From: Streptomyces sp. NRRL F-5126
GTDB taxonomy: Bacteria; Actinomycetota; Actinomycetes; Streptomycetales; Streptomycetaceae
Direction of reading: 5' to 3'
DNA: 64,000 bases
Assembly: GCF_000721265.1 (NCBI RefSeq)
Contig: NZ_JOFZ01000011.1
Location: forward strand, 248,001-312,000
Made by a program: the position numbers and the translations under genes. The stretch's first letter is position 1, and each line of letters opens with the position of its first letter. This document shows positions 16,994 to 63,241 of the stretch, piece by piece. The notes under the pieces were generated by a model that saw only the letters and a program-made list of their open reading frames with translations, had not been told where the DNA came from and searched no databases.

Positions 16994-17569
16994 CTACGGA
17001 TGCAGCTTTTCGCCCTTCGCCAGCATCGCTACGTACTTTTCGATCCGGCGCGCCCGGGTCTCGGCCTTCTTGGCATCGTGGATCCGGTACAGGATCGCGT
17101 AGCGGTTCTGCCGGTCCAGTGTCTCGAAGAACGCCGCCGCGGCCGGGTCGTCGGCCAGGGCCGCCGCGAGGTCGTCCGGCACCGTGGCGGTCCTCGCGCC
17201 GGCGTAAGCCGCCTCCCAACGGCCGTCCGCCTTTGCGCGGTCGACCTCGGCCCGTCCCGGCGGCCGCATCCGGCCCTGCTCGATCAGGACGGCCATCTTG
17301 TCCCTGTTGGCCTGTGACCACTTGCTGCGCGGCCTACGCGGACAGAACCGCTGGAGCCACCACTGATCGTCGAACTTGGCCTTCTGACCGTCGATCCAGC
17401 CATAGCAGAGCGCCTCGTCGAGCGCCTGGGCGTAGTCCAGCGCGGCGACCCCAGGCCCCTTCTTGCGAAGCTTGAGCCAGATGCCGGGCGAGACGGCGTG
17501 GTTCTCGTCGAGCCATGCGCGGAATGCCTCGGCGGATTCGAACGCGACGATCTCCAAGTCCTGAGTCAC
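16994..17569 (-). CDS. YdeI/OmpD-associated-family protein
   Basis: 191 aa from GTG 17569. The family hallmark is the N-terminal segment FRAWLDENHAVSPGIWLKLRKKG, followed by LDEALCYGWIDGQ and RFCPRRPRSKWSQANRDK, and the C-terminal PDDLAAALADDPAAAAFFETLDRQNRYAILYRIHDAKKAETRARRIEK. Members are soluble cytoplasmic proteins linked in some reports to peptide or bacteriocin protection; the biochemical role is unknown. Arg/Trp-rich motifs are intact, so it appears functional. The start is uncertain, since no strong ribosome site is seen. It is flanked on both sides by 42-nt direct repeats. Confidence 0.85.
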   Translation of the reverse strand: MTQDLEIVAFESAEAFRAWLDENHAVSPGIWLKLRKKGPGVAALDYAQALDEALCYGWIDGQKAKFDDQWWLQRFCPRRPRSKWSQANRDKMAVLIEQGRMRPPGRAEVDRAKADGRWEAAYAGARTATVPDDLAAALADDPAAAAFFETLDRQNRYAILYRIHDAKKAETRARRIEKYVAMLAKGEKLHP

Positions 17570-17601
17570 ATCAGCAGCGAACCACAGACCCGGCCCGCTT
17601 G

Positions 17602-17643
17602 CGTCAGAGGCGTGCGACTCCCTCGTGCGAGCGAGCTGATCCC
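17602..17643 (+). repeat. imperfect 42-nt direct repeat, copy B
   Basis: Begins CGTCAGAGGCGTGC and is 34/42 identical to copy A at 16852. It lies upstream of the YdeI-like gene and downstream of nothing annotated. The copies could be remnants of a mobile insertion, of a duplicated promoter/leader, or of a repeat family. Confidence 0.8.
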
Positions 17644-17752
17644 CTGCGTTCCGTACGGGGCGTGCGGCGCCGCTGCACACGCCGACCCGGCCCGGCGGAA
17701 GCCACGACCTAGCTCAGGGCCATGACCGCCCGACAGCCGGCTGCCCGGCTAC

Positions 17753-17807: not shown

Positions 17808-17883
17808 AGTGCGTCACGCTGAGTCCCCATAGAGCCGAGTACGTGACGACGCGTCAGGTGCAGGGATGGACAGGGGAGGCGAC

Positions 17884-18786
17884 ATGGGCACAGATGACGA
17901 GGATTCGACGGGCGCCGCAAGGAGCACCGGGCGCGATGGCGCGGGAGCGGCACCCCCGGCAGCAGAGTACGAGCGGGAGCCACACCCGTCAGACAGCCTG
18001 CGCACGTTCGGTGCCTTCGTCCAGGCCCTGCGCGAGCACGCCGGCCTGAGCCGTGCCGACCTCGGTGAGCGGGTCAGCTACTCCAAACACACGGTGGAGT
18101 CGATCGAGCTTGGCCGCCGCATGCCGGACCAGACGTTCGTGGAACGCGCGGAGGAGGCCCTCGGCAACACCGGCGCGCTACGCAAGGCCGCCCGCCACCT
18201 CACCCGGGGCGAGGCAGGCCTGGCGACATGGTTCCGCCGCTGGGCACGGCTGGAACGAGAGGCAGTGAGCCTGTGCACATACGAGTGCCGGCTGGTGCCG
18301 GGCCTGCTGCAGTCGGAGGCCTACGCGCGGGCGGTCTTCGACAACAGCATCCCGCTACTCACCGACGAGCAGACCGAGGCGCAGGTCGCCGCACGAATGG
18401 AACGGCAGACGATACTGCGAGAGCGTCCGACTGTCCCCTTCGGTTTCATCATCGAGGAGTCCGCCTTCCGGCGCAGACTGGGTGGGACGCAGGTGCAGTC
18501 GAGCATGCTCGACCACGTTCTGGAGCTCACAGCGCCGCGCAACGTGAGCCTGCAAGTCGTACCGCTGGAGCTGGAGTTCCACGGATGCCTCGACGGACCT
18601 GTACAGGTGCTGGAGACGCCAGGGGGACGTCGCCTCGGGTACTCCGAGGGCCAGCAGAACGGACGGCTGATCTCCGACTCAAAAGAGGTGAGTCTGCTCT
18701 GCCGACGCTATGACACACTGCGCTCACAGGCCCTGAACCCCAAGGAATCCCGGGACCTGCTGATGCGATTGCGAGGACAGCTATGA
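17884..18786 (+). CDS. XRE-family HTH regulator with DUF5753 sensor domain (WhiJ-like)
   Basis: 300 aa from ATG 17884, with GGGGAGG 4 nt upstream (an ATG at 17866 lacks one). A disordered N-terminus of about 35 residues is followed by a Cro/CI HTH (FVQALREHAGLSRADLGERVSYSKHTVESIELGRRMPD) and the long DUF5753 region (SLCTYECRLVPGLLQSEAYARAVF through the Cys-containing ending). In Streptomyces such proteins pair with a small DUF397 protein encoded next door and control development or antibiotic genes. The ATGA overlap with the DUF397 gene shows translational coupling. The target promoter is unknown. Confidence 0.94.
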   Translation: MGTDDEDSTGAARSTGRDGAGAAPPAAEYEREPHPSDSLRTFGAFVQALREHAGLSRADLGERVSYSKHTVESIELGRRMPDQTFVERAEEALGNTGALRKAARHLTRGEAGLATWFRRWARLEREAVSLCTYECRLVPGLLQSEAYARAVFDNSIPLLTDEQTEAQVAARMERQTILRERPTVPFGFIIEESAFRRRLGGTQVQSSMLDHVLELTAPRNVSLQVVPLELEFHGCLDGPVQVLETPGGRRLGYSEGQQNGRLISDSKEVSLLCRRYDTLRSQALNPKESRDLLMRLRGQL

Positions 18787-18974
18787 GCAGCGGCACGAAG
18801 CAACTCATTTGGTTCAAGTCCACCTACAGCGGAACGCAGGGCGACAGTTGCGTAGAGATCGCAATCAACGAACGCGCTGTTCACGTACGGGACTCCAAGG
18901 ACTCGACCGGCCCGAGCTTCACTGTCGGCGGCCAGGGCTGGGGCCACTTCGTGCGCTTTGCGTCGAAGCGTTGA
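18783..18974 (+). CDS. DUF397 domain protein, partner of the XRE regulator
   Basis: 63 aa and entirely DUF397: FKSTYSGTQGDSCVEIAI, then VHVRDSKDSTGPSFTVGGQGWGHFVRFASK. It starts inside the stop of the XRE gene (ATGA). The pair behaves like a regulator-antagonist couple in known WhiJ-type systems, with the DUF397 protein acting through the XRE partner. Confidence 0.95.
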   Translation: MSSGTKQLIWFKSTYSGTQGDSCVEIAINERAVHVRDSKDSTGPSFTVGGQGWGHFVRFASKR

Positions 18975-18981
18975 CCTACGC

Positions 18982-19015
18982 GGGCGTGCTGCCCGCCCTG
19001 GTTGGCAGCACGCCC
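18982..19015 (+). terminator. hairpin after the DUF397 gene
   Basis: A perfect 12-bp stem (GGGCGTGCTGCC with GGCAGCACGCCC), 10-nt loop, beginning 8 bp after the stop. It is placed to end the XRE-DUF397 transcript. Confidence 0.8.
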
Positions 19016-19176
19016 AGAGCAGCCGCAACCCGAGTTCGCCAGGGGGCCTGCGGGCGCAGGATAACGGCCCGTCCACTCCAACTGCCCTACTCACACGGGT
19101 AGTAGCAGCAACGCTGCGATCTTCATCCATCTGCCCTGGAGACCGCGTCATCGGACACTGCGGCGGTCGGCGTAGA
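19016..19176. other. intergenic region between convergent transcripts
   Basis: No supported gene. It lies between the DUF397 hairpin and the stop of the low-GC lipoprotein gene. Base composition begins to fall here relative to the left side. Confidence 0.4.
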
Positions 19177-19929
19177 TCACTCTCGCCGAGTGGCGGCGGC
19201 ACTGGCAGATGACGACGATCCATGATGCTCAGCCACCAACTGCGGCTTCGCCATCGACCGCAGCCCGCCGTCATCGGTGCAGCCAAGGTGTTTACTCGCC
19301 GTAAGAGCGATCCCGTTGATCAGCACCAACTGCGCTTTCTGAACATCGGCTTCCTTGTGTCCGGGGAGGTGCCAAAGTGACGGAGCAACTTTCAGCTCCG
19401 CCCGCACCAGAGGGTGGTCAAGTGAGCTACCAGCCAACTGGTCACTGACACACTTGAAGTAGAGATCCGCCCCACCCGGATAGGAGTAGGCTGCATTTTT
19501 TCCGAGACGATATGTCCCCCCGTTTATATCACTAGATTCATCATGAATCTCACTATCGGAAACAATAGAAAGCTCGGCAGTGATCGCTCCCCACTCACCG
19601 TCGTGCAAGTTGATATCGCATGCACGCAGCTGTTTCACATCTTTGAGTGGGTCCGTTGGATGACCCGGCAGGTAATCTCCGGCAAGCGCATCTGCGGCAG
19701 CCTGAGGGCTGAGTCCGCCAAGGTCTTTATCGAATTTTGTAGAGTTTGCAAGGTACTCGACTGCTTTCGCCGCCTCCGGGGAAAGCCCATCGCTGCCACA
19801 CAAATGACGTGCGGACACAAAATGCGACGCGGACGAATGATGTTTTTCATCGCTACCCGCTGTACATCCCGCGAGTACGCAACAGAAGACACTCACCAAC
19901 ACTCCGACTGGCCCCAGCCGCCGACTCAT
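19177..19929 (-). CDS. putative lipoprotein at the end of the type VII-like cluster
   Basis: 250 aa. The signal peptide has a hydrophobic core (VGVLVSVFCCVLAGC) and lipobox LAGC. A His/Ser-rich linker leads to a domain with LCGSDGLSPEAAKAVEYLANS, LRACDINLHDGEWGAITAEL, LYFKCVSDQLAG and KHLGCTDDGG. It has four cysteines after the lipobox and may form disulfides. Function is unknown. It has noticeably lower GC than the core genes on either side of the block. It is last in the minus-strand run that begins at 26623 and lies about 60 bp after the DUF6571-like gene, so it may be co-transcribed. Confidence 0.78.
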   Translation of the reverse strand: MSRRLGPVGVLVSVFCCVLAGCTAGSDEKHHSSASHFVSARHLCGSDGLSPEAAKAVEYLANSTKFDKDLGGLSPQAAADALAGDYLPGHPTDPLKDVKQLRACDINLHDGEWGAITAELSIVSDSEIHDESSDINGGTYRLGKNAAYSYPGGADLYFKCVSDQLAGSSLDHPLVRAELKVAPSLWHLPGHKEADVQKAQLVLINGIALTASKHLGCTDDGGLRSMAKPQLVAEHHGSSSSASAAATRRE

Positions 19930-19988
19930 CCTTCTTACACCCTTCTGCCCTGCTCGTTGTCCTCAAAGCGCTTCCCGTAGAGACTTTG

Positions 19989-22361
19989 TCAGTCATTCGT
20001 CTGAGATTTACTCCGCAGCCAATAGGCGCGGTTTGAATTCTCCCCGTATGAATGGTCGCTCTGACTCAGAAGTGACTGCACATGCTCGCTTCCGTAGTGC
20101 AAGTGGTGGTTCCGGATGAACAGATTCAGGGGATGCTGCGCGTTTTTCCAGCCGGTTACAATGACGTCGCGAGATTGGTCACGACCCTCTTGCTCAATTT
20201 GGTCGGTTTGATCGCTCGTATCGAGCCAACCACCAGTAAGCTTTCCGAGGTAATGGTTTACTACTTCCTGACCGTTGTTCATGGCCAAAGGTACGAGAAC
20301 TGCCGACACACCGGCCGCAGGGGCAGCGATCGGCAAGGCTGCTACTCCTCCGGCAACTGCGGCTCCCGTGCCGAGATCCACCCAGAAGGATCTTTCTTCC
20401 ATGGATTTGCTGTACTCTTCTGCAGTATGCCCATGCTGGGCAGCAATCTCTGCGGCACGACCATCATCCAATGTGCCTTGCATCCCTGCTGTGAAACGAC
20501 CTACCTCATCGAGGCGCCCCCATTCGGGAGAATGGCCGTTAGAACCAGCGAATTTTTCCAGCGCAGAATCGGCATAGACACGGTTTGCCTGTGACAGCGT
20601 CGCATAAGCATCCGGACTCTGCCCGAGAGTGCTGACGAACTGTGTGGCCTCAACCTGGCCGATCTTTACGTGGCCTGCGGAATTGTCGGATGGAGCGAAG
20701 GCGCTGTCGGCATGGTCTCCGGAGGCGGCCCAGTTTAGATCGTCAACGTAACCCGCAGCCATATTCCCAAGACTGTCAGACAGAGCCTGCTGGTGCTTAA
20801 AGATCAGCTCGGCGCCGGAATCACCGCCGTAGGTCGTGATGACTTGCTTCATGATGCTCGCCGACAGAGCGTCGCGATGCTTCATAGCCTCGGTCGGATC
20901 GGGATTGGGATCGTCATACGGATACCCAAGTGTTGCCGACTCCAAAGCATGACCAAAAGCGTCTGTGGTGTAGCTGGCGGCGGCCTTCATGTCCTTCGGG
21001 TCCAGACTTGTACTGTCTGGCGCCATTTGGTAATCACCATTGGCGAAGAACTTGAAGTAGCTCTTGATCTCCTTACCGTCTGCGTCCTTCGGTGGTCCGC
21101 TGACCAGGTCACCATCCTGGTCGTAAGCATGCGGGGAGTCGTGGAAGAAATGCTTTGAGGCGTCCGGGCTGTGACCGAGCGCTTCGAGGACACCGTTCAC
21201 GGGATCATATCCCGCGCCGTCCTTCCCCGACGGATTGAAGAAGTTCGGATCGTTCGGGACATTGATCCCCTTGTTCTGCATGAACATGTAGGGGTCTTTC
21301 GCATGCAACTGCGTCACATGTTCCGCAATGGGATCCAAGAATTTCGGGTTGTAATTGTCACCGTATCGCAGCATTCCAGCGAGCAACTGATATCCGTAGG
21401 GTGCCGCGTTGGGGTTCATGGTGTTCTTGCTCAACTGCAGTTGCTGCGTCCCCAAGTGGCGCATTTGGCTAGACCACTTGGACGGCCAATCATCGTTCTT
21501 GCCCTGCGACTGCGTGGCCGTCGCCAACGTCATCCCCAGGTTCTTCTGGAGCACTTTAACGTCCTTGAGACGCTGCTTGTCGATGTCGTTGCCGAGCCCG
21601 TAGGGGCTCTCCGCGAGCTGCCCGTAGAATACGAGTGATTCCTTTGGCCCTAGATCCTTGTAGAAGTCTCGGGAGAATTCTCGTGACTTGCTGTTATCAC
21701 TCAGCAACTCATTCAGCTGCTGTAGTTGGGTGTGCGTTAGTTTTGCACCCTTCCTCGCCAGAGCGGCTGCGCGATGGGCTTCTTCGGCGTCCAGACTGCT
21801 GTACGCAGGAGTGCTGAACTGGTGCTTGTCCGGCGTAACATCGGCTTTGAGCGCATTGGAGGCAGAGATGTCCGCATCATCGCACGTCTCGACGATGGCG
21901 TCGACCCGCCTCTGCATGGCACGAATGCGGGATTGCTGTTTCCCGTAAATCTCGGAAAAGTCCGGGTCGTGCCGAGCGAGATTATTACTCTCGACCGGAT
22001 GGAGCGCCTCCACCTTGCCATGCGGCCCGATCACGAGGCCTTGCGCAGGGGCGTCATGATCGATGAGCTTCTGGAGGTCTTTCTGCGCCTTCTTGAAAGC
22101 GGTGTGCGCCTCCGAGATGATGGCGTGGATGCCTTTCGCTTCCTTGGCCGCGTCGCTGAATTCCTTCGCGGTCTTGTCGATGAAAGGCTTGGTGACGTCG
22201 GCGTTACTGCCGGTCCAGTACTCGTCCTTGGCCTTGTCAGCCATCGTCGTACGCGCCGTCTTGGCCAGTGTCTCCAACTTGCCGGCCATTGACGACCAGT
22301 CGTTCATGGCATCGGCAAGCTTGTCCAGTGGCACGTTGTAGACATCGTTGTAGGTCAGCAC
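19989..22361 (-). CDS. large ESX/LXG-like protein (DUF6571-type), predicted type VII secretion substrate
   Basis: 790 aa from GTG 22361, preceded by GGAG. The N-terminal ~110 residues are helical with a WXG-type turn (EYWTGSNADV) and an ESX-like second helix (FKKAQKDLQKLI). The long middle is mainly helical and contains FYKDLGPKESLVFYGQLAESPYG and FLDPIAEHVTQLHAKDPY. Near residue 690 a hydrophobic stretch (GAAVAGGVAALPIAAPAAGVSAVLVPLAM) may insert in membrane. The C-terminus, rich in Asn, His and Gln, has no identified toxin motif. The family is usually encoded with WXG100-like proteins. The DUF6571 label is recalled, not checked. GC is clearly lower than in the window core. Confidence 0.75.
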   Translation of the reverse strand: MLTYNDVYNVPLDKLADAMNDWSSMAGKLETLAKTARTTMADKAKDEYWTGSNADVTKPFIDKTAKEFSDAAKEAKGIHAIISEAHTAFKKAQKDLQKLIDHDAPAQGLVIGPHGKVEALHPVESNNLARHDPDFSEIYGKQQSRIRAMQRRVDAIVETCDDADISASNALKADVTPDKHQFSTPAYSSLDAEEAHRAAALARKGAKLTHTQLQQLNELLSDNSKSREFSRDFYKDLGPKESLVFYGQLAESPYGLGNDIDKQRLKDVKVLQKNLGMTLATATQSQGKNDDWPSKWSSQMRHLGTQQLQLSKNTMNPNAAPYGYQLLAGMLRYGDNYNPKFLDPIAEHVTQLHAKDPYMFMQNKGINVPNDPNFFNPSGKDGAGYDPVNGVLEALGHSPDASKHFFHDSPHAYDQDGDLVSGPPKDADGKEIKSYFKFFANGDYQMAPDSTSLDPKDMKAAASYTTDAFGHALESATLGYPYDDPNPDPTEAMKHRDALSASIMKQVITTYGGDSGAELIFKHQQALSDSLGNMAAGYVDDLNWAASGDHADSAFAPSDNSAGHVKIGQVEATQFVSTLGQSPDAYATLSQANRVYADSALEKFAGSNGHSPEWGRLDEVGRFTAGMQGTLDDGRAAEIAAQHGHTAEEYSKSMEERSFWVDLGTGAAVAGGVAALPIAAPAAGVSAVLVPLAMNNGQEVVNHYLGKLTGGWLDTSDQTDQIEQEGRDQSRDVIVTGWKNAQHPLNLFIRNHHLHYGSEHVQSLLSQSDHSYGENSNRAYWLRSKSQTND

Positions 22362-22377
22362 GCCTGCTCCTGTCCGC

Positions 22378-22827
22378 TCACTTGAAGTAAGAGTTGATGG
22401 CGGACACCTGCATCGAGGTCTTGATGTCGGCCTCTTCCTTGGCGTGCGACGATGCGCTGTAGTCCAGGTGGTTCGAGATGAGCGCACAGGCACCCAACAG
22501 GGTGTCGACCTGAGACTTCCAGTTGTCGTGCACCGTCTGCAAGGCTCGACCGGTCCGGAAGCTGCTGACTGTCAGCATCGATGCTGCGGTCTGCGTGCTC
22601 TCTTCCGCGAGACGCCCATCCGTCGTCAGCGTGTCGTGCAGGTGGTATGCGGCGCTGCCTAGCGCCCCGAGGTGGTCCTGGTTGACCTGCAAGTCCTTGG
22701 CGGACGGGCCACCCGAACCGCCTGGCTCAGGCGCCAGATGGTTCAGCTTCATACTGACGTTCTGTGCCGCCTGCCCCCGAGCAGACGCCCACTCATCTTC
22801 GAACGACAAGGTGCCCCGTCCTTCCAT
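22378..22827 (-). CDS. small ESX-like helical protein
   Basis: 149 aa. A predicted helical hairpin runs from VNQDHLGALGSAAYHLHDTL to LQTVHDNWKSQVDTLLGACALISNHL, with Trp in the turn region, as in WXG100-like partners. A Gly/Pro-rich linker sits near residue 35. It lies 16 bp upstream of the large ESX-like gene, so the two probably form a secretion pair. ATG 22827 has no good ribosome site. A TTG at 22809, behind GGACGGGG, is an alternative start. Confidence 0.7.
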   Translation of the reverse strand: MEGRGTLSFEDEWASARGQAAQNVSMKLNHLAPEPGGSGGPSAKDLQVNQDHLGALGSAAYHLHDTLTTDGRLAEESTQTAASMLTVSSFRTGRALQTVHDNWKSQVDTLLGACALISNHLDYSASSHAKEEADIKTSMQVSAINSYFK

Positions 22828-22970
22828 CCCCGTGTCGCCGCGCGCCAGGACGTCGCTCGGCTTCTCATGCGCCCGAGTACTTTATCGTCTCTTTGTCATC
22901 CTGCGGGAGTCCAATTACTAGAACGTATCGAGCTTTCTGGCCTTATTGGACAAAACAACGGGGCAACGGC

Positions 22971-22996
22971 TGTGTGCTGAAGCAATTAAGCACACA
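22971..22996 (-). terminator. hairpin downstream of the mycosin gene
   Basis: Eight-bp stem (TGTGTGCT with AGCACACA) and a 10-nt loop in a 234-bp gap between the mycosin stop and the next minus-strand gene. There is no T-tract. It may mark the end of the mycosin transcript, which would make the downstream gene pair a separate unit. Confidence 0.4.
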
Positions 22997-23061
22997 CCTG
23001 ACCTGCGGCCTTCTCTGTGGGAGTGAACCCGTAGCACCGCGGCTGGGTGACTGCCGACGCA

Positions 23062-24489
23062 TCAGGCTTCGGCCGATGGTGGCAGATTCCCTCCTCTGCC
23101 CTGCGGAGGCTGTGGTGGTTGCTGTCCCGGGTACGGCTGTGCCTGCTGGGGCTGCTGGCCGGGCGACTGTGGCGGGTAGTACTGCTGGGGCTGCGTCGTG
23201 TACGCGTAGTACGAGGGCGGCGGTGGGGCGGCCGCTGCGAGGGCTGCTGCCTTGCGGCGAGAGCGGGTTACCGCGTAGGCGCCGCCGCTGAGGACGACAA
23301 CTGCGGCTGCCCCTACGCCGATCCACAGGCCGAGACCGCCGCCTCCGCCGGCGTCCGAGACTGCTCCGGCTGTCGGCTTGCTGCTGTGCTCGCTGCCGGC
23401 GTTGCCCTTGTTGGCTGGAGAACCAGCCGAGACAGAGGGCGACGCCGACTTCTTCTCGGAGGCCGCCAGGTCGGGCAGGGGATAGACGTCGGCAGGTCCC
23501 GGGTTTCCGGGGTGAAGCAGGGCCTGGTAGGGGCGGACGGCACCGTAGCCGACGTTCTCGTTGTGTGTGTGCCCGTCGGTAGGGTGACTCGCGGTGTTCA
23601 ACAGAACGCGCAGAACCTGATTGTTGGTCCAGTGCGGATGCACCGACCAAAGGAGCGCCGCTGATGCAGACGTGAGGGCCGTCGCATCACTCGTACCGCT
23701 ACCACCACACAGCCCGGTGGTTCCGACACATGCCTTGATGATGTCTTGCGCAGGTGCAGAAATATCAACCTCCGGCCCGGTCTCCGAGAACGGCATGAGA
23801 GTGGCCTTACGGCTTAGGCCGCCTACCCCTACGACACCAGGCGTTCCGGCAGGATACTGCACCCGGTTTCCCTTTTCCGCATCGTTTCCTACGGCAGCAA
23901 AGATCAGCTTATTTTTACTGAGCGCATACTTCACAGCCGCCCGAAGTTCCGGACTGTCTCCACCCCCACTACCAACTGAAATGCTGAGGATTCTGGCCGA
24001 CGTATTCGCAGCCCACCTGATCGCATGGGCCATGCTGGTGTCTTCCGATTCACCATCCTTCGCCAGCGATTCAAACGAATAAGGAAGCCGAACGGGGATG
24101 ATTTTACTACCAGGTGCTAGGCCCCATGAGCCCTGCACCGGGCCCAGTTTCCCCGTGGCGGCGATGAGGGCCGCCATGCCTGACCCGTGCTCTGCGACGT
24201 CTGTATACTCGTCGCCCTTTTGCTTGGAAAAATCTTTTCCTGGCAGGACTTGCCCCTGCAAGTCAGGCAAGGACTTGTCCACACCCGAGTCGAGCACCGC
24301 TACCGAGACACCCTTGCCCGTGGTGATCTTCCAGATCGAGTCAGCCTCCATGGCATCCAGATGCCACTGCCTCTCTCGCACAGTGTCAGAAGCCCACGCG
24401 GGAAGAGCTGAAATACCCAGTAGCAACACGGCTACAGCTGATGTCGCGACAGCCTTGAGACCCAGCGACCGTCCATGTGCTCTGCGCAT
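23062..24489 (-). CDS. mycosin-type (MycP) type VII secretion subtilisin-like protease
   Basis: 475 aa from ATG 24489 (AGAGGAAT upstream). It has a signal peptide (ALPAWA cleavage region), then an S8 catalytic domain with the triad Asp in VAVLDSGVD, His in AEHGSGMAALIA and Ser in GTSDATALTSA; oxyanion Asn is in AAVGND. A Ser/Pro-rich linker precedes one C-terminal membrane helix (GLWIGVGAAAVVVLSGGAYAV, about residues 370-395) and a cytoplasmic tail rich in Gln, Pro and Tyr. This topology is that of MycP, a structural and proteolytic component of the ESX membrane complex. The Q/P-rich tail is longer than in mycobacterial mycosins. Neighbours are WXG-like substrates. Confidence 0.93.
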   Translation of the reverse strand: MRRAHGRSLGLKAVATSAVAVLLLGISALPAWASDTVRERQWHLDAMEADSIWKITTGKGVSVAVLDSGVDKSLPDLQGQVLPGKDFSKQKGDEYTDVAEHGSGMAALIAATGKLGPVQGSWGLAPGSKIIPVRLPYSFESLAKDGESEDTSMAHAIRWAANTSARILSISVGSGGGDSPELRAAVKYALSKNKLIFAAVGNDAEKGNRVQYPAGTPGVVGVGGLSRKATLMPFSETGPEVDISAPAQDIIKACVGTTGLCGGSGTSDATALTSASAALLWSVHPHWTNNQVLRVLLNTASHPTDGHTHNENVGYGAVRPYQALLHPGNPGPADVYPLPDLAASEKKSASPSVSAGSPANKGNAGSEHSSKPTAGAVSDAGGGGGLGLWIGVGAAAVVVLSGGAYAVTRSRRKAAALAAAAPPPPSYYAYTTQPQQYYPPQSPGQQPQQAQPYPGQQPPQPPQGRGGNLPPSAEA

Positions 24490-24515
24490 TATTCCTCTGA
24501 CCTATTCCGGCGGGC

Positions 24516-26087
24516 TCAATCGATCACAGGAGGCACAACCTGTCGGCTGCCCTGCTGCCAGGTTTCCTCGTCCTCTGTCAGGTAGTCCGGGCGCTCGCCG
24601 CCACGCTCATCTTCACGACGGCGTGACCTGTTCCTTCCGCGAGGCGTCATGCCCATACGGCCGTTCCTCGACTGCTGACGGGAGTTCTCCTCATCATCTC
24701 GTACGAGACCAGAGCCTCCCTGCGTGAACGGCCTGCCACCCAGCTTCCCAGGCTGTGCAGGTCTACCGACCACTCCACCTGGATCTGAAGCGAGCCTGCG
24801 TCCACCCACGAGACCGTTTCGCCCCGCTCCTGCAGCTCCTTCGCCGCCCATACGCATGGCCGAGGCGCCTCGGCCCATCATGGGGCGTCCAGACGATCCG
24901 TTCGAAGACTCCTCACCACCAACGACCATGCCGCGGGGCAACCGGGCAGGGGGCCTGCCGCTAGGTGACTGCACTGGCCGCCCGCCCGAGATGCCATTCG
25001 GGCGAGGCATAGAACCATTTGTGCCGACTGGCGTGGTGCCTTCTGAGAACTCGGAACCGAACCTTGGTACCCGCCCGCCCGAAAAGCCGCCTCCCGGGCG
25101 CACGCTGAAGTTGCCTCCTGGCCTGCCACCGAAGTGAGGGAGGCTTCCCGCTGGCCCTCCGAAAGATGGAGGGACGACACCCAACGGCGCCGCTTGTGAG
25201 CCGTTCGGGCTCGGAGTAGGAGCGCCATGAGTAATCGGGGTCGGTGGTGCTACCGGAGGAGCGGTGCTGTTGATCTCCATATGGGCATCGGGCACGTGCG
25301 GGATGGGCGCTGGGCTGTCTGTGCCACCTTCGTATGCAAGATGCTTTGACTCCGGCACACCCCCGCTGGGCGCAACGACGGAACTGTTGCCGCTCACGCT
25401 GTAAGCGTGCCGTGTACTACCGCCACCCGGCAGGGTGCTGCTTCCATACCCACCTGACGCTCCTGGGCGGCTTACATCGGCGTGAGATTCCCACCAGTCT
25501 TTATCCAGCTCGCTCGCCGGGGGCGGGAACGTAGGTGGCTTCAGGGCGTTGATCTGGCCGCCGTTGTGGACGTACGACGTTGCCAGCGCGCGCATCGCCG
25601 AGGCTGCGTCGCCGCGGGTCGACTCGATGCGCGAGTTCGCCTGTATCACGCTCTTCTCCAGGCTCGGGCTCGGAGAGTCGTGGTGCTTCAGTGCATTGTT
25701 CGCATGGTGCAGGTCCGCCTGTGCGCTTATCGTCTGGGAGAGCGTCGGCATTTTGGAGTGTGCATCCGCGATCGACTGCGCGACGACACCCGTGTACTTG
25801 CTGGCATCCTGCGCGTAGTCGCTCAGCCTCAGCGTGGCGTTCGCCGTCTGGTGGCTCCACTCTCGGAACGCGTCGCCGCCTTCGCCCTCCCATTGGAGGC
25901 CCGTGACGTGCGCCTTCAGGTGCTCGCCGATCGTGTTGACCGTCTTGGCCACCGCCGCCAGCTTCACGGACACGTCGCTGACCGTCTGGTGGTTCGCCGA
26001 CTTCAGTAGAGCCAGCATCTCCTCGTGCGTCATCGACTCGAAGTCGGTCGTGCCCGCGACCGGCTTGCCGCCCCCGTGTCCGCTCAC
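24516..26087 (-). CDS. WXG100/PPE-like type VII secretion protein with Pro/Gly-rich C-terminus
   Basis: 523 aa from GTG 26087 (GGAGGTG upstream), overlapping the stop of the preceding gene by 4 bp. The N-terminal helical hairpin has the WXG-like turn WEGEGGDAF at about residue 67. It continues as two more helices (LSDYAQDASKYTGVVAQSIADAHSKMPTLSQTI and LEKSVIQANSRIESTRGDAASAMRALATSYV). From about residue 205 the protein becomes a long low-complexity Pro/Gly/Ser/Arg tail (PVAPPTPITHGAPTPSPN, many GRP and RGG motifs). It is probably exported by, or a structural part of, an ESX apparatus. Confidence 0.85.
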   Translation of the reverse strand: MSGHGGGKPVAGTTDFESMTHEEMLALLKSANHQTVSDVSVKLAAVAKTVNTIGEHLKAHVTGLQWEGEGGDAFREWSHQTANATLRLSDYAQDASKYTGVVAQSIADAHSKMPTLSQTISAQADLHHANNALKHHDSPSPSLEKSVIQANSRIESTRGDAASAMRALATSYVHNGGQINALKPPTFPPPASELDKDWWESHADVSRPGASGGYGSSTLPGGGSTRHAYSVSGNSSVVAPSGGVPESKHLAYEGGTDSPAPIPHVPDAHMEINSTAPPVAPPTPITHGAPTPSPNGSQAAPLGVVPPSFGGPAGSLPHFGGRPGGNFSVRPGGGFSGGRVPRFGSEFSEGTTPVGTNGSMPRPNGISGGRPVQSPSGRPPARLPRGMVVGGEESSNGSSGRPMMGRGASAMRMGGEGAAGAGRNGLVGGRRLASDPGGVVGRPAQPGKLGGRPFTQGGSGLVRDDEENSRQQSRNGRMGMTPRGRNRSRRREDERGGERPDYLTEDEETWQQGSRQVVPPVID

Positions 26088-26623
26088 TTCGCACCTCCGC
26101 TTGCGCCGTAGCCGCCGACGCTCTTGCCGCCCGTGTGCTTGCTTCCGCCGTGCTTGTGGTACGGGTCCCGGTCCGGGTGGTACTGCGCCTCGATCTCGCT
26201 GTTCAGCTTGTGCATGCGGGCCTTGATGTCGTCGTCCAGGTTCTTGTAGCTCTTGCCGGACGTTTCGATCGCGAGGCTGAGGCTCTCGATCTGGAGACCC
26301 AGGGTCTTGGAGAGGTTTTCCAGCTCGTCGTGCACGTTGTTGTACGACGCGTAGAAGAACTGCGCCTCGTGGAAGCCGTGGCCGCCCAGATGTGTGCGGG
26401 CCATGCGGTCCTGGCCGACTCGGGTCGGGGACGCCTGGGACTTGTGGAGCATCGTGAGGAGGTCGTCGACGTCCTTCTTGAACTTCTTCATGTCGGCGAG
26501 GTCGCTCATGACGCCGTTGACCGCGGCGCCCACGCCGCCGATCACTCCGCCGAACAAGCCTCCGAACAGGCTGAGGCCGTCCGCCGGGGACCCTCCGCCA
26601 CCGCCCGCTGCTGCCGCTTCCAC
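26084..26623 (-). CDS. ESX-like helical protein, first gene of the type VII cluster
   Basis: 179 aa. A glycine-rich hydrophobic N-terminus (GLFGGVIGGVGAAVNGVM) is followed by a helical hairpin: DLADMKKFKKDVDDLLTMLHKS, a short GGHGFHEAQFF turn, then YNNVHDELENLSKTLGLQIESLSLAIETSGKSYKNLDDDIKARMHKLNSEIEAQY. The tail is rich in His, Gly and Lys. Size and helix pattern suit a WXG100-like partner, although the turn has no WXG. It is translationally coupled to the next gene (GTGA overlap). Confidence 0.78.
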   Translation of the reverse strand: MEAAAAGGGGGSPADGLSLFGGLFGGVIGGVGAAVNGVMSDLADMKKFKKDVDDLLTMLHKSQASPTRVGQDRMARTHLGGHGFHEAQFFYASYNNVHDELENLSKTLGLQIESLSLAIETSGKSYKNLDDDIKARMHKLNSEIEAQYHPDRDPYHKHGGSKHTGGKSVGGYGASGGAK

Positions 26624-59797: not shown

Positions 59798-60154
59798 GTC
59801 ATGTGCTCCCTGCTGATAGAGATCACTGCATCGTCCCGCGTTCCGGGGACTCCGGCCCACTTTAATGCCGCCGGACGGGTCACCGAGCGTCATCGCACGT
59901 GACCCTCGCGCGTGACGGCCGCGGGCCGCGTCCCGGGGAGGACGCGAGCAGCGCACGGATGGTTGCCGCCGCACGGTCCCGAGCGCGCGGGACACGATCG
60001 CAAGCAGGCATTTATGCACGCACAGCCGACCAATCAAGATCACTTGAGACCGGGGCGCGGGCGTGTTGTCAGTGGCAGGTGCGAGGATGCCCTCACGTAC
60101 CGGTCGGGCGCCGTACCCGCCGGACACCCTGTGCAGAAGGGACCGCTGACGGCT
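59798..60154. other. divergent intergenic region, kinase / FHA-FtsK
   Basis: 357 bp with no supported gene. It contains the PafBC/RecA-NDp-like promoter at 60066-60088 for the FHA-FtsK gene. The AT-richer stretch 60000-60050 (CAAGCAGGCATTTATGCACG) may contain the minus-strand kinase promoter. Confidence 0.5.
60066..60088 (+). promoter_or_regulatory. RecA-NDp / PafBC-type DNA-damage promoter
   Basis: TTGTCAGTGGC, a 6-nt spacer AGGTGC, then GAGGAT. The published LexA-independent (RecA-NDp, PafBC) motif of actinobacteria is TTGTCAGTGGC-N6-TAGggT. The first half matches exactly and the second has G for T at its first position. It is about 66 bp upstream of the FHA-FtsK ATG. Confidence 0.7.
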
Positions 60155-63100
60155 ATGCAGATCCGGCTGACCGTCCTCGCCGCGGGGCGCGCGTGCGACG
60201 TCCTCGTCACCGCGCCGGCGGGCACGGCGCTCGCGGCGGTGGCGTCCGGCCTCGTCACCTCGGTCCTCGGCCCCGACGCCCCCGGCGCGGCGGCGCTGTA
60301 CGCGGACGGTGTCCGGCTGGACGCGCAGCGTGCGGCCCTCGGCGACCCGCCGCTGGTCGACGGCGCGGTGCTGTCGCTCGGCGCGCCCGCCGCCGACGAG
60401 GGGCTCACGCGTGGGGCGCCGGCGCAGCTCAGGGTGGTGGCCGGCCCGGACGCGGGCGGGGTGCACCTGCTGCACGGCGGCCGCGTGGTGATCGGCCGCT
60501 CCGCCGAGGCGGACGTGCCCCTGGACGACCCGGACGTGTCGCGGCTGCACTGCGCTGTGACGCTCGCGGCGGACGGCGCCGTGGCGGTGGCCGACCTCGG
60601 CTCGACGAACGGCACGACGCTCGACGGGGCGCCGGTCGGCTCGTCGCGGGTCCCGCTGCCGCCGGGCGCGGCGCTGCGCCTTGGCGAGTCGACGGTGACG
60701 CTCGCCGTGGGCGAGCGGGAGGCGGCGCTGGCGACGGTCCCCGACGGCGAGGGCCACCTGCGGGTGACGCCGGGGGACGCGCGCGCGGCGGACGCCGGGG
60801 TCCATGCCGGGGCCGATCCGCGGGAGCTCGGCGGCGAGCGGCTCGGGGCCGCGCCCCGCCGCGTTCCGGCCGCCGCGCCCGGCTCCGGCCTCCCGCACGC
60901 GCCGGGCGGCACGGGGCAGGACGGCGGGCACGCGTTCGGCGGACCGCAGGCACAGGCCGGCCACGGCCACCCGGAGGGCGGCTCCTCCGGCCCGTCCCAT
61001 CCCTCCGGCCCCGCCATCGCGAGCGAGGTGCCGCATGTGCCGGGCCAGCGCGACGGCACGCAGGACGACGCGGCGTCCGGCAGGCGCCGCGGCCTGGGCG
61101 CCTGGGCACGCAGGTTCGGCGGGGGCGCGGGGCGCGGCGAGACGCATGTCGGCGTGCCGCTCCAGCGCGGCGGCGAGCGGCCCGCAGGGCGGACTCCCCT
61201 CGACTCCACGTGGCCGGACGCGGCCGAGCTGCTGCTCACCGCTCTCGCCCCGGGGCCCCGCCTGTGGGAGCGCGGCCCCTCCCATCCCCAGGCGCTGGTG
61301 GTCAGGCTGGGCACGGCGGACAGGCCAGACCGCCACGCGCCGGTGACGGTGGGACTGCTGGAGGCCGGCTCGCTTGGTCTCGCCGGGCCGCGCGCGCGTC
61401 TCGTCGGCCTCGCACGCTCCGTGGTGGCGCAGCTCGCCGCCCTGCACCCGCCGTCGGAGCTGGAGATCGCGCTGATCACGACGGATCGCGCGCTGGGCGT
61501 CGAGCAGCGGCGCGCGGACTGGGGCTGGCTCGGCTGGCTGCCGCACGCCAGGCCGGGCCACGGGCAGGACTGCAGGCTGCTTCTCGCGTACGACAGGGAG
61601 CAGGCGGCGGCCAGGGCCGCCGAGCTCAGCCGGCGGCTTGACGAGGGGCCGCTCGGCCCCGGCTGGGCGTCCGCCGAGCCCGGCGCGGTCGAGGCCGCCG
61701 CCCGGCGCCACACCGGCCAAAGGACGCTGCTCGTCGTGGACGGCGACCCCGGCTCCGCGGCGCTGCGCGAGACGACGGCGCGTCTCGCGCAGGCCGGTCC
61801 CGCGGCGGGCATCCATGTGCTGTGCCTGGCCGAGACGCCCGCCGCGTCCGCGGTCTCGTCCGTCACGGCCACCTATGACGCGGCCTGCGCGGCGTCGCTG
61901 CCGTTCCGCGAGTGCGGCGCCGTCGCGCTGCTCAGCGGGGACGTGGCGGGCGCGCTGCGGGTGCTGCGCACCGCGCCGGGGCAGCCCGTCGGCGACGGCA
62001 GGGGCACGGTCGCGGTCGTGGACGCGGTGTCGGCGGCGTGGGCCGAGCGGTTCGGGCGGGCGCTCGCGCCGCTGCGTACGACGGTCGCGGCGGCGGGCCC
62101 GCGCCCCGCCGCGGAGCTGCCGCGCACCGCCAGGCTGCTGGACGAGCTGGGCCTCGCGCGGGCCACGCCCGCGTCGCTGCTGGCCGGCTGGGCTCGGGCG
62201 GCCGACGCCGGCCAGGAGTGCGCCGTGGTGCTGGGCGCGGGGCCGCGCGGTCCCGTGGCGGCCGACCTTGTGCGCGAGGGCCCCCACCTGCTGGTCGAGG
62301 GCCCGCCCGGCAGCGGGCGCACGGAGCTGCTGCGGGCGCTCGCCGCCTCGCTCGCGGCGGGCGCGCGCCCGGACGATCTGGGTCTTCTGCTGGTCGACGG
62401 CGCGGGCGGCATGAGGGGAGAGGGCCTCGCCGCGCTCACGGAGCTGCCGCATGTGACGGAACACCTGGTGGCCTCTGATCCCGTCAGGATGCGTGCGTTC
62501 GCGCAGGCGCTCGGCGGGGAGCTCAAGCGCAGGGCCGAGCTGCTCGGCCCGCTCTCGTTCGCCCAGTGGCACGAGGCGCGGCAGGCCGGGGACGCGCGCG
62601 AGGAGCGCGGGGAGCAGCAGCCGGGCGACGCGCCCCTGTCGGCGACGCGCACGCTGCGGCTGCGCCCGGGCGGGCAGCGGCCGGGGCAGGACGTGCGGCG
62701 CGCGCCCAGCCCGTTGCCGCGGCTGGCCGTGCTCGTCGACGACCTGGACGCGCTGGCGGCTCCCGCGCTCGGCAGCCCCGGGCGCCCCGCCGCCGGATCC
62801 GTGATGCGGGCGCTCCAGGCGATCGCGCGCGACGGCGAGCGGCTGGGGGTGCACCTGCTGGCGGCGTCCGGCGCCCATGACCGCACCGCGTCCACGGAAC
62901 TGGCGCGTACGGTGCGCCTGCGCGCCGTGCTCGACGCGCCGCCGACGGCGCCCGCGCCCGAGGATCCGACGCCGGGCCGCGGCCGCCTCGTCGGTCCCGA
63001 CGGCGGCGCGACGCCCTTCCAGGCGGGCCGGGTGACGGGCCGCATCCCGCGCACGGCGACCCGGCGCCCGACGGTGGCGCCCCTGGAGTGGGAGCGGATG

Positions 63101-63241
63101 GGCGATCCGCCGACGCGCCGCCCGTTGCGCGAGCTGGGCAACGGGCCGACGGATCTGGCGCTGCTCGCCAGTGCCATGGACCGGGCGGCGCGTTCCATCG
63201 CGGCGGCCCCGGTCGCCCCGCTCTCGCCCGTGCACCCCTGA
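60155..63241 (+). CDS. FHA domain plus FtsK/SpoIIIE (EccC-like) ATPase protein with Arg in its P-loop
   Basis: 1028 aa from ATG 60155. The N-terminus contains a beta-rich stretch with LTVLAAGRACDVLVTAPAGTALAAV, then an FHA domain (VIGRSAEADVPLDDPDVSRLHCAV to DLGSTNGTTLDGAPV, about residues 95-165). A low-complexity Gly/Ala/Pro linker (about 200-330) follows. The FtsK-like part has PRARLVGLARSVVAQLAALHPPSELEIALITTD and VEGPPGSGRTELLRALAASLA, where Walker A Lys is Arg (near residue 721). Walker B-like LLLVDGAGG and VLVDDLDAL follow. It may be a type VII/ATPase-like machine or a regulatory pseudo-ATPase. The adjacent PkaA/PkaB genes make a phospho-Thr link plausible. Confidence 0.85.
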   Translation: MQIRLTVLAAGRACDVLVTAPAGTALAAVASGLVTSVLGPDAPGAAALYADGVRLDAQRAALGDPPLVDGAVLSLGAPAADEGLTRGAPAQLRVVAGPDAGGVHLLHGGRVVIGRSAEADVPLDDPDVSRLHCAVTLAADGAVAVADLGSTNGTTLDGAPVGSSRVPLPPGAALRLGESTVTLAVGEREAALATVPDGEGHLRVTPGDARAADAGVHAGADPRELGGERLGAAPRRVPAAAPGSGLPHAPGGTGQDGGHAFGGPQAQAGHGHPEGGSSGPSHPSGPAIASEVPHVPGQRDGTQDDAASGRRRGLGAWARRFGGGAGRGETHVGVPLQRGGERPAGRTPLDSTWPDAAELLLTALAPGPRLWERGPSHPQALVVRLGTADRPDRHAPVTVGLLEAGSLGLAGPRARLVGLARSVVAQLAALHPPSELEIALITTDRALGVEQRRADWGWLGWLPHARPGHGQDCRLLLAYDREQAAARAAELSRRLDEGPLGPGWASAEPGAVEAAARRHTGQRTLLVVDGDPGSAALRETTARLAQAGPAAGIHVLCLAETPAASAVSSVTATYDAACAASLPFRECGAVALLSGDVAGALRVLRTAPGQPVGDGRGTVAVVDAVSAAWAERFGRALAPLRTTVAAAGPRPAAELPRTARLLDELGLARATPASLLAGWARAADAGQECAVVLGAGPRGPVAADLVREGPHLLVEGPPGSGRTELLRALAASLAAGARPDDLGLLLVDGAGGMRGEGLAALTELPHVTEHLVASDPVRMRAFAQALGGELKRRAELLGPLSFAQWHEARQAGDAREERGEQQPGDAPLSATRTLRLRPGGQRPGQDVRRAPSPLPRLAVLVDDLDALAAPALGSPGRPAAGSVMRALQAIARDGERLGVHLLAASGAHDRTASTELARTVRLRAVLDAPPTAPAPEDPTPGRGRLVGPDGGATPFQAGRVTGRIPRTATRRPTVAPLEWERMGDPPTRRPLRELGNGPTDLALLASAMDRAARSIAAAPVAPLSPVHP

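Follow-up and report, generated by a model that had tools for sequence, protein, structure and literature searches.

The type VII secretion system (T7SS) is conserved in Streptomyces, and its cargo there is poorly known. Among the closest described systems, TspA of Staphylococcus aureus, an LXG effector of the T7SSb type whose gene lies outside the ess locus, has a polymorphic C-terminus that depolarises membranes and is neutralised by the membrane-bound TsaI, of which several homologues exist (PMC7456083); small helical partners, one with an FxxxD motif, are required by the LXG effectors TelC and TelD (PMC9600955); and the immunity protein TipC, which has paralogues, sits outside the membrane, to which it is anchored (PMC6193138). 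Tandem immunity genes are reported for Firmicutes (PMC9484751) and WXG-type toxins for Actinobacteria, among them Ntox38, which has a mycosin-like protease in its vicinity (Zhang et al. 2012, PMC3482391); in addition, a genome study reports at least one ESX system in all selected Streptomyces but one, with further WXG100 genes elsewhere in the genomes (PMC8401907). Here, we analyze a run of six genes on the minus strand of a 64,000-nucleotide stretch of Streptomyces sp. NRRL F-5126, hereafter called the window (bases 248001-312000 of contig C11, in a genome of 7.18 Mb and 167 contigs). Its layout suggests two units rather than one, esx179-wxg523-mycosin (unit 1) and partner-DUF6571-lipoprotein (unit 2), and we consider it probable that unit 2 represents a polymorphic T7SSa effector cassette with surface-anchored lipoprotein immunity, situated in a satellite of the cell's own T7SSa.

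The first line of evidence is the recurrence of unit 2. We kept 118 of 125 DUF6571 open reading frames (ORFs; length 680-1000 residues, start codon found), 71 in a first set and 47 in a held-out set of 40 new stretches, six of these from genomes that the first set had also sampled; predictions for the held-out stretches were written after fetching and before analyzing them. All stretches were chosen from ranked hits, with long contigs favored, and fractions of stretches given below are not population frequencies. A partner gene, defined by a hidden Markov model (HMM), lies upstream of 71/71 first-set and 41/47 held-out DUF6571 genes (112/118 in total), and an ORF of 150-290 amino acids (aa) follows 69/71 and 45/47 of them; its N-terminus is hydrophobic in 69 and 42 cases, respectively (111/118). 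The gap to this downstream ORF is at most 20 nt in 92/114 cases, including an overlap in 48, and 95 of the 114 (i.e., 95/118 DUF6571 genes) carry a lipobox pattern, while some family members appear, as read from their sequences, to have a transmembrane anchor replacing the lipobox. The rule that selects the next ORF prefers a hydrophobic N-terminus, and the control was therefore the same rule applied behind 516 other coding-like frames of the same stretches, which returned such an ORF in 203, a hydrophobic N-terminus in 41 and a lipobox in 11 cases. Since these counts are far lower, the lipoprotein is a feature of the DUF6571 gene family. Extra relatives of the lipoprotein, some in tandem, were found in 10 of 61 stretches (16 copies, with every DUF6571 hit counted). 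The linked lipoprotein has no family match in Pfam or NCBIfam, and the window copy (P0001) has two homologues in the protein database, one of which is apparently the window's own. On the effector side, a WXG motif, in what is presumably a helical segment, occurs within the first 80 residues of 113/118 DUF6571 proteins, and a YxxxD/E motif at residues 180-198 in 77/118 (background 6.5%).

The second line of evidence is coevolution from both ends of the effector. In a first analysis of 49/69 genes, the C-terminus correlated with the lipoprotein at a partial r of 0.52 and the N-terminus with the partner at 0.62, the crossed pairs giving 0.07 and 0.04. A later rerun required a partner, a next ORF and a hydrophobic N-terminus of the latter, and covered 69/71 first-set and 37/47 held-out genes; the C-terminus/lipoprotein value was 0.571 in the first set and 0.488 in the held-out set (n = 37), where the N-terminus/partner value was 0.731 (0/300 permutations as high in each case) and the crossed pairs gave -0.04 and 0.04. 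A sliding window along the DUF6571 protein placed steps near residues 260 and 480, with the lipoprotein correlation roughly flat from residue 481 onward, and a non-redundant matrix (42/69 and 26/37 genes after a 70% identity filter) resolved three blocks: the partner with residues 1-130, residues 131-480, and residues 481-790 with the lipoprotein. It could be argued that recombination tracts simply give adjacent genes a shared history, with the lipoprotein having no functional tie to the C-terminus; consistent with this, the lipoprotein adjoins the C-terminus, the middle part of the protein also correlates somewhat with the lipoprotein, and the tract of replacement seen in a sister strain (below) reaches the next gene. 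However, the blocks split inside the protein (at about residues 130 and 480) and span the gene borders, so that simple distance-dependent linkage does not predict the pattern. That is, in the non-redundant matrix the correlation of the partner with residues 1-130 (0.86/0.79) exceeds that of residues 1-130 with 131-260 (0.61/0.46), the correlation of the lipoprotein with residues 481-640 (0.59/0.44) exceeds that of the contiguous segments 371-480 and 481-640 (0.43/0.16), and the flat profile beyond residue 481 is likewise at odds with linkage. We therefore regard linkage by itself as a rather improbable explanation. Pairing of the partner with the effector N-terminus is supported by the coevolution and by one annotated fusion: in Streptomyces sp. 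NBC_01006 a single 414-aa protein comprises the partner (residues 1-118) and the N-terminal domain (138-337), although this protein is short and may be a remnant.

The C-terminal part of the effector also appears to be exchanged between lineages. In 66/118 DUF6571 proteins we scored as present an uncharged, hydrophobic segment, mostly 31-38 residues long and about 115 residues from the end, hereafter called the hairpin. On a tree built from residues 1-470, its presence or absence switches 11 times, with 10 of these changes forced by well-supported branches (a quick tree, no bootstrap). As clustering by BLAST E-value put all C-termini into one cluster, we used the hairpin and similarity matrices to define C-terminal classes. 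The C-terminal type is associated with the length of the lipoprotein (Fisher 4e-7 in set 1 and 9e-4 in set 2, at a length threshold set after seeing set 1). Comparison with the sister strain S. montanisoli (L019) is consistent with such an exchange: the partner is 99% and residues 1-520 of the effector 94-98% identical, followed by 85% for residues 521-650, 72% for 651-780 and 62% for the lipoprotein. Synonymous divergence climbs from 0.13-0.41 until it is saturated over residues 521-780 and stands at 1.3 in the lipoprotein, and the ratio of nonsynonymous to synonymous divergence (dN/dS) of 0.02 in the partner and 0.03-0.07 in residues 1-520 indicates purifying selection. In 150-base windows, nucleotide identity is 0.89-0.99 between positions 22900 and 20801, 0.56-0.83 inside the divergent tract, and 0.96-1.00 beyond 18250; the tract of about 20800-18250 thus looks like a replacement that carried the C-terminus, the lipoprotein and part of the next genes. 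Together, the family has a conserved N-terminal trafficking part and an exchangeable C-terminus, with a linked gene that changes with the C-terminus and occurs in extra copies, as in polymorphic toxins, the linked gene being a candidate for immunity. We describe P0002, the 790-aa protein of the window, as probably working like a polymorphic toxin and do not claim membership as proven, since a recognized toxin domain is missing.

Next to the lipoprotein, the window encodes a convergent HTH_31/DUF5753 regulator (17866-18786, plus strand), the start of which is near-identical to S. montanisoli and the lipoprotein side of which is divergent. A small DUF397-like gene may come after the regulator. 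A minus-strand gene at 16994-17680 codes for a protein whose C-terminal domain is OmdA (PF13376; bacteriocin-protection, YdeI/OmpD-associated, by name).

Relatives on plasmids provide a third line of evidence. The first ~190 residues of P0002 match proteins named 'polymorphic toxin type 44' in 5 of 23 plasmid records, and in the two plasmid proteins examined Pfam confirmed Ntox44 (64.0 and 72.8 bits; cut-off 24), with an HMM of DUF6571 residues 1-200 matching their N-termini at E-values of 1e-38 and 6e-31 (million-sequence scale). Both Ntox44 genes have a partner-like gene upstream (partner HMM, E-values 3.5e-13 and 1.1e-4 on the same scale), and another plasmid partner-like gene scores above the cut-off of PF10824 (EspC). 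An HMM of the DUF6571 C-terminus had no match to the Ntox44 parts. The relatives with this N-terminal domain, DUF6571 and Ntox44 alike, occur on plasmids of Streptomyces and Kitasatospora, 21 of the 23 records being typed as non-mobilizable. Alternatively, DUF6571 might be a secreted structural or signaling protein of development or the envelope, held at the surface by the lipoprotein, with its C-terminal variation reflecting fast evolution of recognition (mating, aggregation, phage receptor). The large size and fairly constant length of the protein, the strong constraint on residues 1-520 between the sister strains, the lack of a recognizable toxin domain, and the link of Streptomyces ESX with development suggested by the titles of cited references would all fit such a role. 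Nonetheless, the occurrence of the same N-terminal domain on Ntox44 proteins, the joint exchange of C-terminus and lipoprotein, and the extra lipoprotein copies argue against it, and hence we judge this alternative unlikely, albeit less so than linkage, and favor the effector cassette.

The identity of the 790-aa protein deserves a separate comment. The initial annotation had described it as LXG/DUF6571-like, with no recognizable toxin domain, and had suggested that it could be a new kind of effector or appendage. The LXG assignment did not hold, as P0002 has no Pfam match at E<=1 and carries WXG instead; several relatives are named DUF6571, while PF20211 (the Pfam model of DUF6571) itself does not match P0002 at E<=1. 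Among five relatives tested, four (48-51% identical, and picked because PF20211 was already flagged on them) score above the PF20211 cut-off and the closest (74%) scores below it. An uncharacterized family of polymorphic effectors is what the data suggest, and nothing speaks for an appendage. An antiphage component and a phage origin were also considered and rejected: the five proteins of the run other than the mycosin have no PADLOC match, and P0002 has no counterpart among phage records at E<=1e-5. Searches for solved-structure relatives of the DUF6571 protein or the partner gave none that was convincing.

With respect to the secretion machinery, profile searches found no EccB, EccC, EccD or EccE in the six-gene run, as annotated initially, and thus the run is not a complete T7SSa locus. 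A search of the genome located a complete core on contig C13, encoding EccE, EccB, MycP, two WXG100 proteins (EsxA and EsxB), EccC and EccD, with every gene above its curated cut-off (FtsK/SpoIIIE, mycosin and Ecc profiles). There are four FtsK-domain frames in the genome; the EccC models were applied to those of C13, which passes, and of the window (59912-63241), which fails. P0002 has relatives in 168/246 Streptomyces genomes and, in a draw from the family, in 60/121 genomes and 12/17 genera; in a class-wide draw (296 genomes of 114 genera, with the other family genera of the former draw excluded), all 22 matches were in Streptomyces. EccC_b is above the cut-off in 225/246 Streptomyces genomes, and a DUF6571 match is found in 166/225 EccC-positive vs. 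2/21 EccC-negative genomes (Fisher p 7e-9, not corrected for kinship). Ecc genes lie near DUF6571 in 9 of 63 stretches (the window included, its own FHA-FtsK gene left out of the count), and 38 of 63 have a nearby match to the mycosin or to wxg523. The module therefore occurs both beside the core and detached from it, and the gene set is common rather than unique, in partial agreement with what the initial annotation expected of a routine locus. Therefore, of the two options offered by the initial annotation, an orphan module served by another ESX locus or a reduced system, the former is the one borne out: the six-gene cluster is supported as a detached satellite of a complete T7SS, and the C13 core is the likely exporter of the module. 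Decay or reduction to a functionless secretion locus would account for the missing Ecc genes and for the lower GC content of the run (0.56-0.66 per gene, vs. 0.71 for the whole window); all six frames are open, however, the partner and the effector trunk are under purifying selection, the core is elsewhere in the genome, the family recurs, and low GC is a family trait (68/71 DUF6571 genes are below their flanks). We consider decay effectively ruled out by the C13 core and the purifying selection.

Two further observations concern secretion genes outside the run. The window frame at 59912-63241 (plus strand) encodes a 1109-aa protein with FHA and FtsK/SpoIIIE domains (PF00498, PF01580) that scores 139.6 bits with the EccCa model vs. 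a cut-off of 509.15, and possibly belongs to another ATPase-linked export system; the two remaining FtsK frames are on C5 and C8. A further mycosin above the TIGR03921 cut-off is encoded near infC, rpmI and rplT on contig C10 (219191-220213; L018:8191-9213, minus strand).

It is important to note that several observations weigh against the effector cassette or limit its generality. In the first analysis the middle part of the effector correlated with the lipoprotein at 0.37 given the C-terminus, residues 261-470 did so at 0.164 in the held-out set (1/300 permutations as high), and residues 241-340 of P0002 (window 21342-21641) show a small lipoprotein correlation in both sets, apart from the C-terminal block; accordingly, linkage probably contributes to the signal. 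In the sister strain, the tract extends past the lipoprotein into the regulator, unit 1 also has divergent patches relative to S. montanisoli, and the lipoprotein-length threshold, as mentioned, was chosen with set 1 in view. No partner was found for 6/47 held-out DUF6571 genes, the downstream ORF is missing in 2/71 and 2/47 cases, the hairpin is absent from 52/118 proteins, the effector YxxxD/E is limited to the 77 proteins noted above, and only 10/112 partners carry a YxxxD/E export arm. Searches of Pfam, NCBIfam and PADLOC found no toxin domain in P0002. Finally, two EccC-negative genomes have weak DUF6571 matches (E 1e-14 and 3e-4), and 59/225 EccC-positive genomes have none.

The features of the run are collected in Table 1. 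The six minus-strand genes predicted initially are all present as intact, open frames, from 26623 down to 19177; the overlaps or short gaps predicted between them hold for esx179/wxg523 (GTGA), the sole overlap, while the other gaps are 26, 252, 16 and 59 nt after correction of the start of the small gene. It is the gap of 252 bp between the mycosin and the small gene that leads us to read the run as two units. The small protein had been given 149 aa; it most likely begins at TTG 22809, because relatives begin there and the database copy has 143 aa. The lipoprotein may similarly start 11 codons downstream, its database copy having 239 aa. A search of window 22700-23200 revealed neither a promoter nor a terminator consensus, and the run has no RNA element at Rfam gathering scores; a hairpin-like stretch upstream of the partner gene is within the ordinary range (z -0.78). 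P0001, P0002 and P0005 are each single-copy in the genome.

Table 1. Coordinates of the six genes and of the parts discussed (positions in the window).
Feature	Position	Strand	Basis or remark
Helical protein esx179, 179 aa; candidate PE/EsxB-like partner of wxg523	26084..26623	-	YxxxD motif YKNLD at residue 126
WXG/PPE-like protein wxg523, 523 aa, G/P-rich middle	24516..26087	-	Conserved C-terminus RPDYLxEDEETW
Accessory mycosin, subtilisin-like	23062..24489	-	Triad D67/H101/S267, C-terminal hydrophobic segment, Q/P-rich tail; tree
Small Esx/EspC-like partner, 143 aa, TTG start (most likely)	22378..22809	-	HMM-defined; 149 aa if started at 22827
DUF6571-family protein P0002, 790 aa; candidate exported effector	19989..22361	-	Recurrence, linkage, coevolution
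Putative N-terminal export domain of P0002, residues 1-195	21777..22361	-	WXG 49-51, YxxxD 187-191; also on Ntox44 proteins
Probable C-terminal exchange module of P0002, residues 481-790	19992..20921	-	Sliding window, coevolution, sister-strain comparison
Hydrophobic hairpin in the variable C-terminal part of P0002, at about residues 660-696	20274..20384	-	Hydrophobicity
Lipoprotein P0001, 250 aa, lipobox LAGC; candidate surface-anchored immunity protein	19177..19929	-	Lipobox, linkage
Tract of low identity to S. montanisoli	18250..20800	none	Spans the C-terminal part of the effector, the lipoprotein and some of the adjoining regulator region

Unit 1 resembles a PE/PPE-type pair accompanied by a protease. 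The mycosin scores 290.8 bits with TIGR03921 (cut-off 278.75) and thus belongs to this family; in an alignment with subtilisin, D67, H101 and S267 fall on the triad positions. A hydrophobic segment is present at its N-terminus and another one close to its C-terminus; the intact triad and the Q/P-rich tail agree with the initial annotation. The mycosin tree separates it from core MycP and places it among the accessory mycosins (a clade of 29 rows with support 100/99). YxxxD/E occurs in 19/22 esx179 relatives, WXG in 30/32 wxg523 relatives and a C-terminal YLxED form in 26/32; the WXG/PPE-like label initially given to the 523-aa protein agrees with the motifs of its relatives, while its own WXG100 and T7SS_signal matches are sub-threshold. 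The wxg523 C-terminus (window 24558-24593, minus strand) is nearly invariant among relatives, the YLxED form being missing in 5/7 of those near core genes (L069, L084, L086, L087, L092) and in L070.

The mechanism we propose is as follows, with export, toxicity, immunity, membrane action and the role of unit 1 being the steps that we infer. The 143-aa partner would pair with the N-terminal WXG domain of P0002 to form an export complex read by the EccC machine encoded on C13; the active module would be the C-terminal part, about residues 481-790, acting outside or in a neighboring cell; and the lipoprotein, anchored outside the membrane, would provide cognate immunity at the outer membrane face. 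Unit 1 might serve as an accessory pair with a processing protease that aids export, although this is a guess. By analogy with TspA and with colicins, the hairpin before the last ~95 residues could allow the window's variant to act on membranes, a possibility we hold only tentatively. More broadly, DUF6571 proteins could be Streptomycetaceae-wide, T7SSa-delivered weapons between related strains, with C-termini traded along with surface lipoprotein antidotes and detached satellites equipped with their own accessory mycosin and PPE-like pair, and with one common class, that of the window, inserting a hydrophobic hairpin into the target membrane; we hold this general picture to be somewhat less than evenly likely in all its parts.

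If true, the Streptomyces ESX system would gain a role in antagonism. Should the cassettes encode effectors along with their immunity proteins, roughly two thirds of the sampled Streptomyces genomes would carry at least one predicted contact weapon with pairs amenable to testing, and there would be an explanation for detached clusters that have an additional mycosin but lack EccC; further, the three-module coevolution map points to the boundaries at which to divide the protein and to partners to test. We found no paper on DUF6571 in the open-access literature (subscription literature being mostly outside the scope of the search), nor a title or abstract there, among those on toxins, immunity and competition, describing Streptomyces T7SS effectors of this type.

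The cassette shares features with several known systems. We take the WXG on one helical partner with YxxxD/E nearby to be as in the mycobacterial T7SSa substrates PE-PPE and EspB-EspC, and the plasmid partner-like gene that matches PF10824 adds a likeness to EspC; unlike these substrates, the window cassette has a separate immunity-like lipoprotein and C-terminal exchange. The TspA system is not known to include a mycosin. TspA-TsaI and the window share an effector off the core locus, a polymorphic C-terminus, several copies of an immunity or immunity-like gene, a membrane-associated immunity protein (a candidate one here) and, for the window's hairpin variant by inference, a membrane-active C-terminus. 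They differ in that TspA is an LXG/T7SSb effector and the window's a WXG/T7SSa one, that TsaI is membrane-bound whereas the candidate immunity protein here is a lipoprotein, and that TspA has no small partner genes (PMC9600955). The cassette resembles TelC-TipC with Lap1/Lap2 of S. intermedius in that a small partner gene adjoins the effector, the TelC partners binding its N-terminal domain, and in that the window lipoprotein, like TipC, would lie outside the membrane, with paralogues in both. TelC, however, is an LXG/T7SSb lipid II phosphatase with two partners, compared to one partner and WXG here, and Lap1 carries FxxxD whereas window-type partners are mostly without YxxxD/E. Similar in architecture are the WXG polymorphic toxins of Actinobacteria, with a T7SS-type N-terminal domain, an exchangeable C-terminus and an immunity gene (a candidate one here), and the Ntox44 proteins, which have the N-terminal domain in common with DUF6571; what sets the DUF6571 cassette apart from these toxins is a C-terminus without a Pfam or NCBIfam toxin domain and a linked lipoprotein without a family match in these databases.

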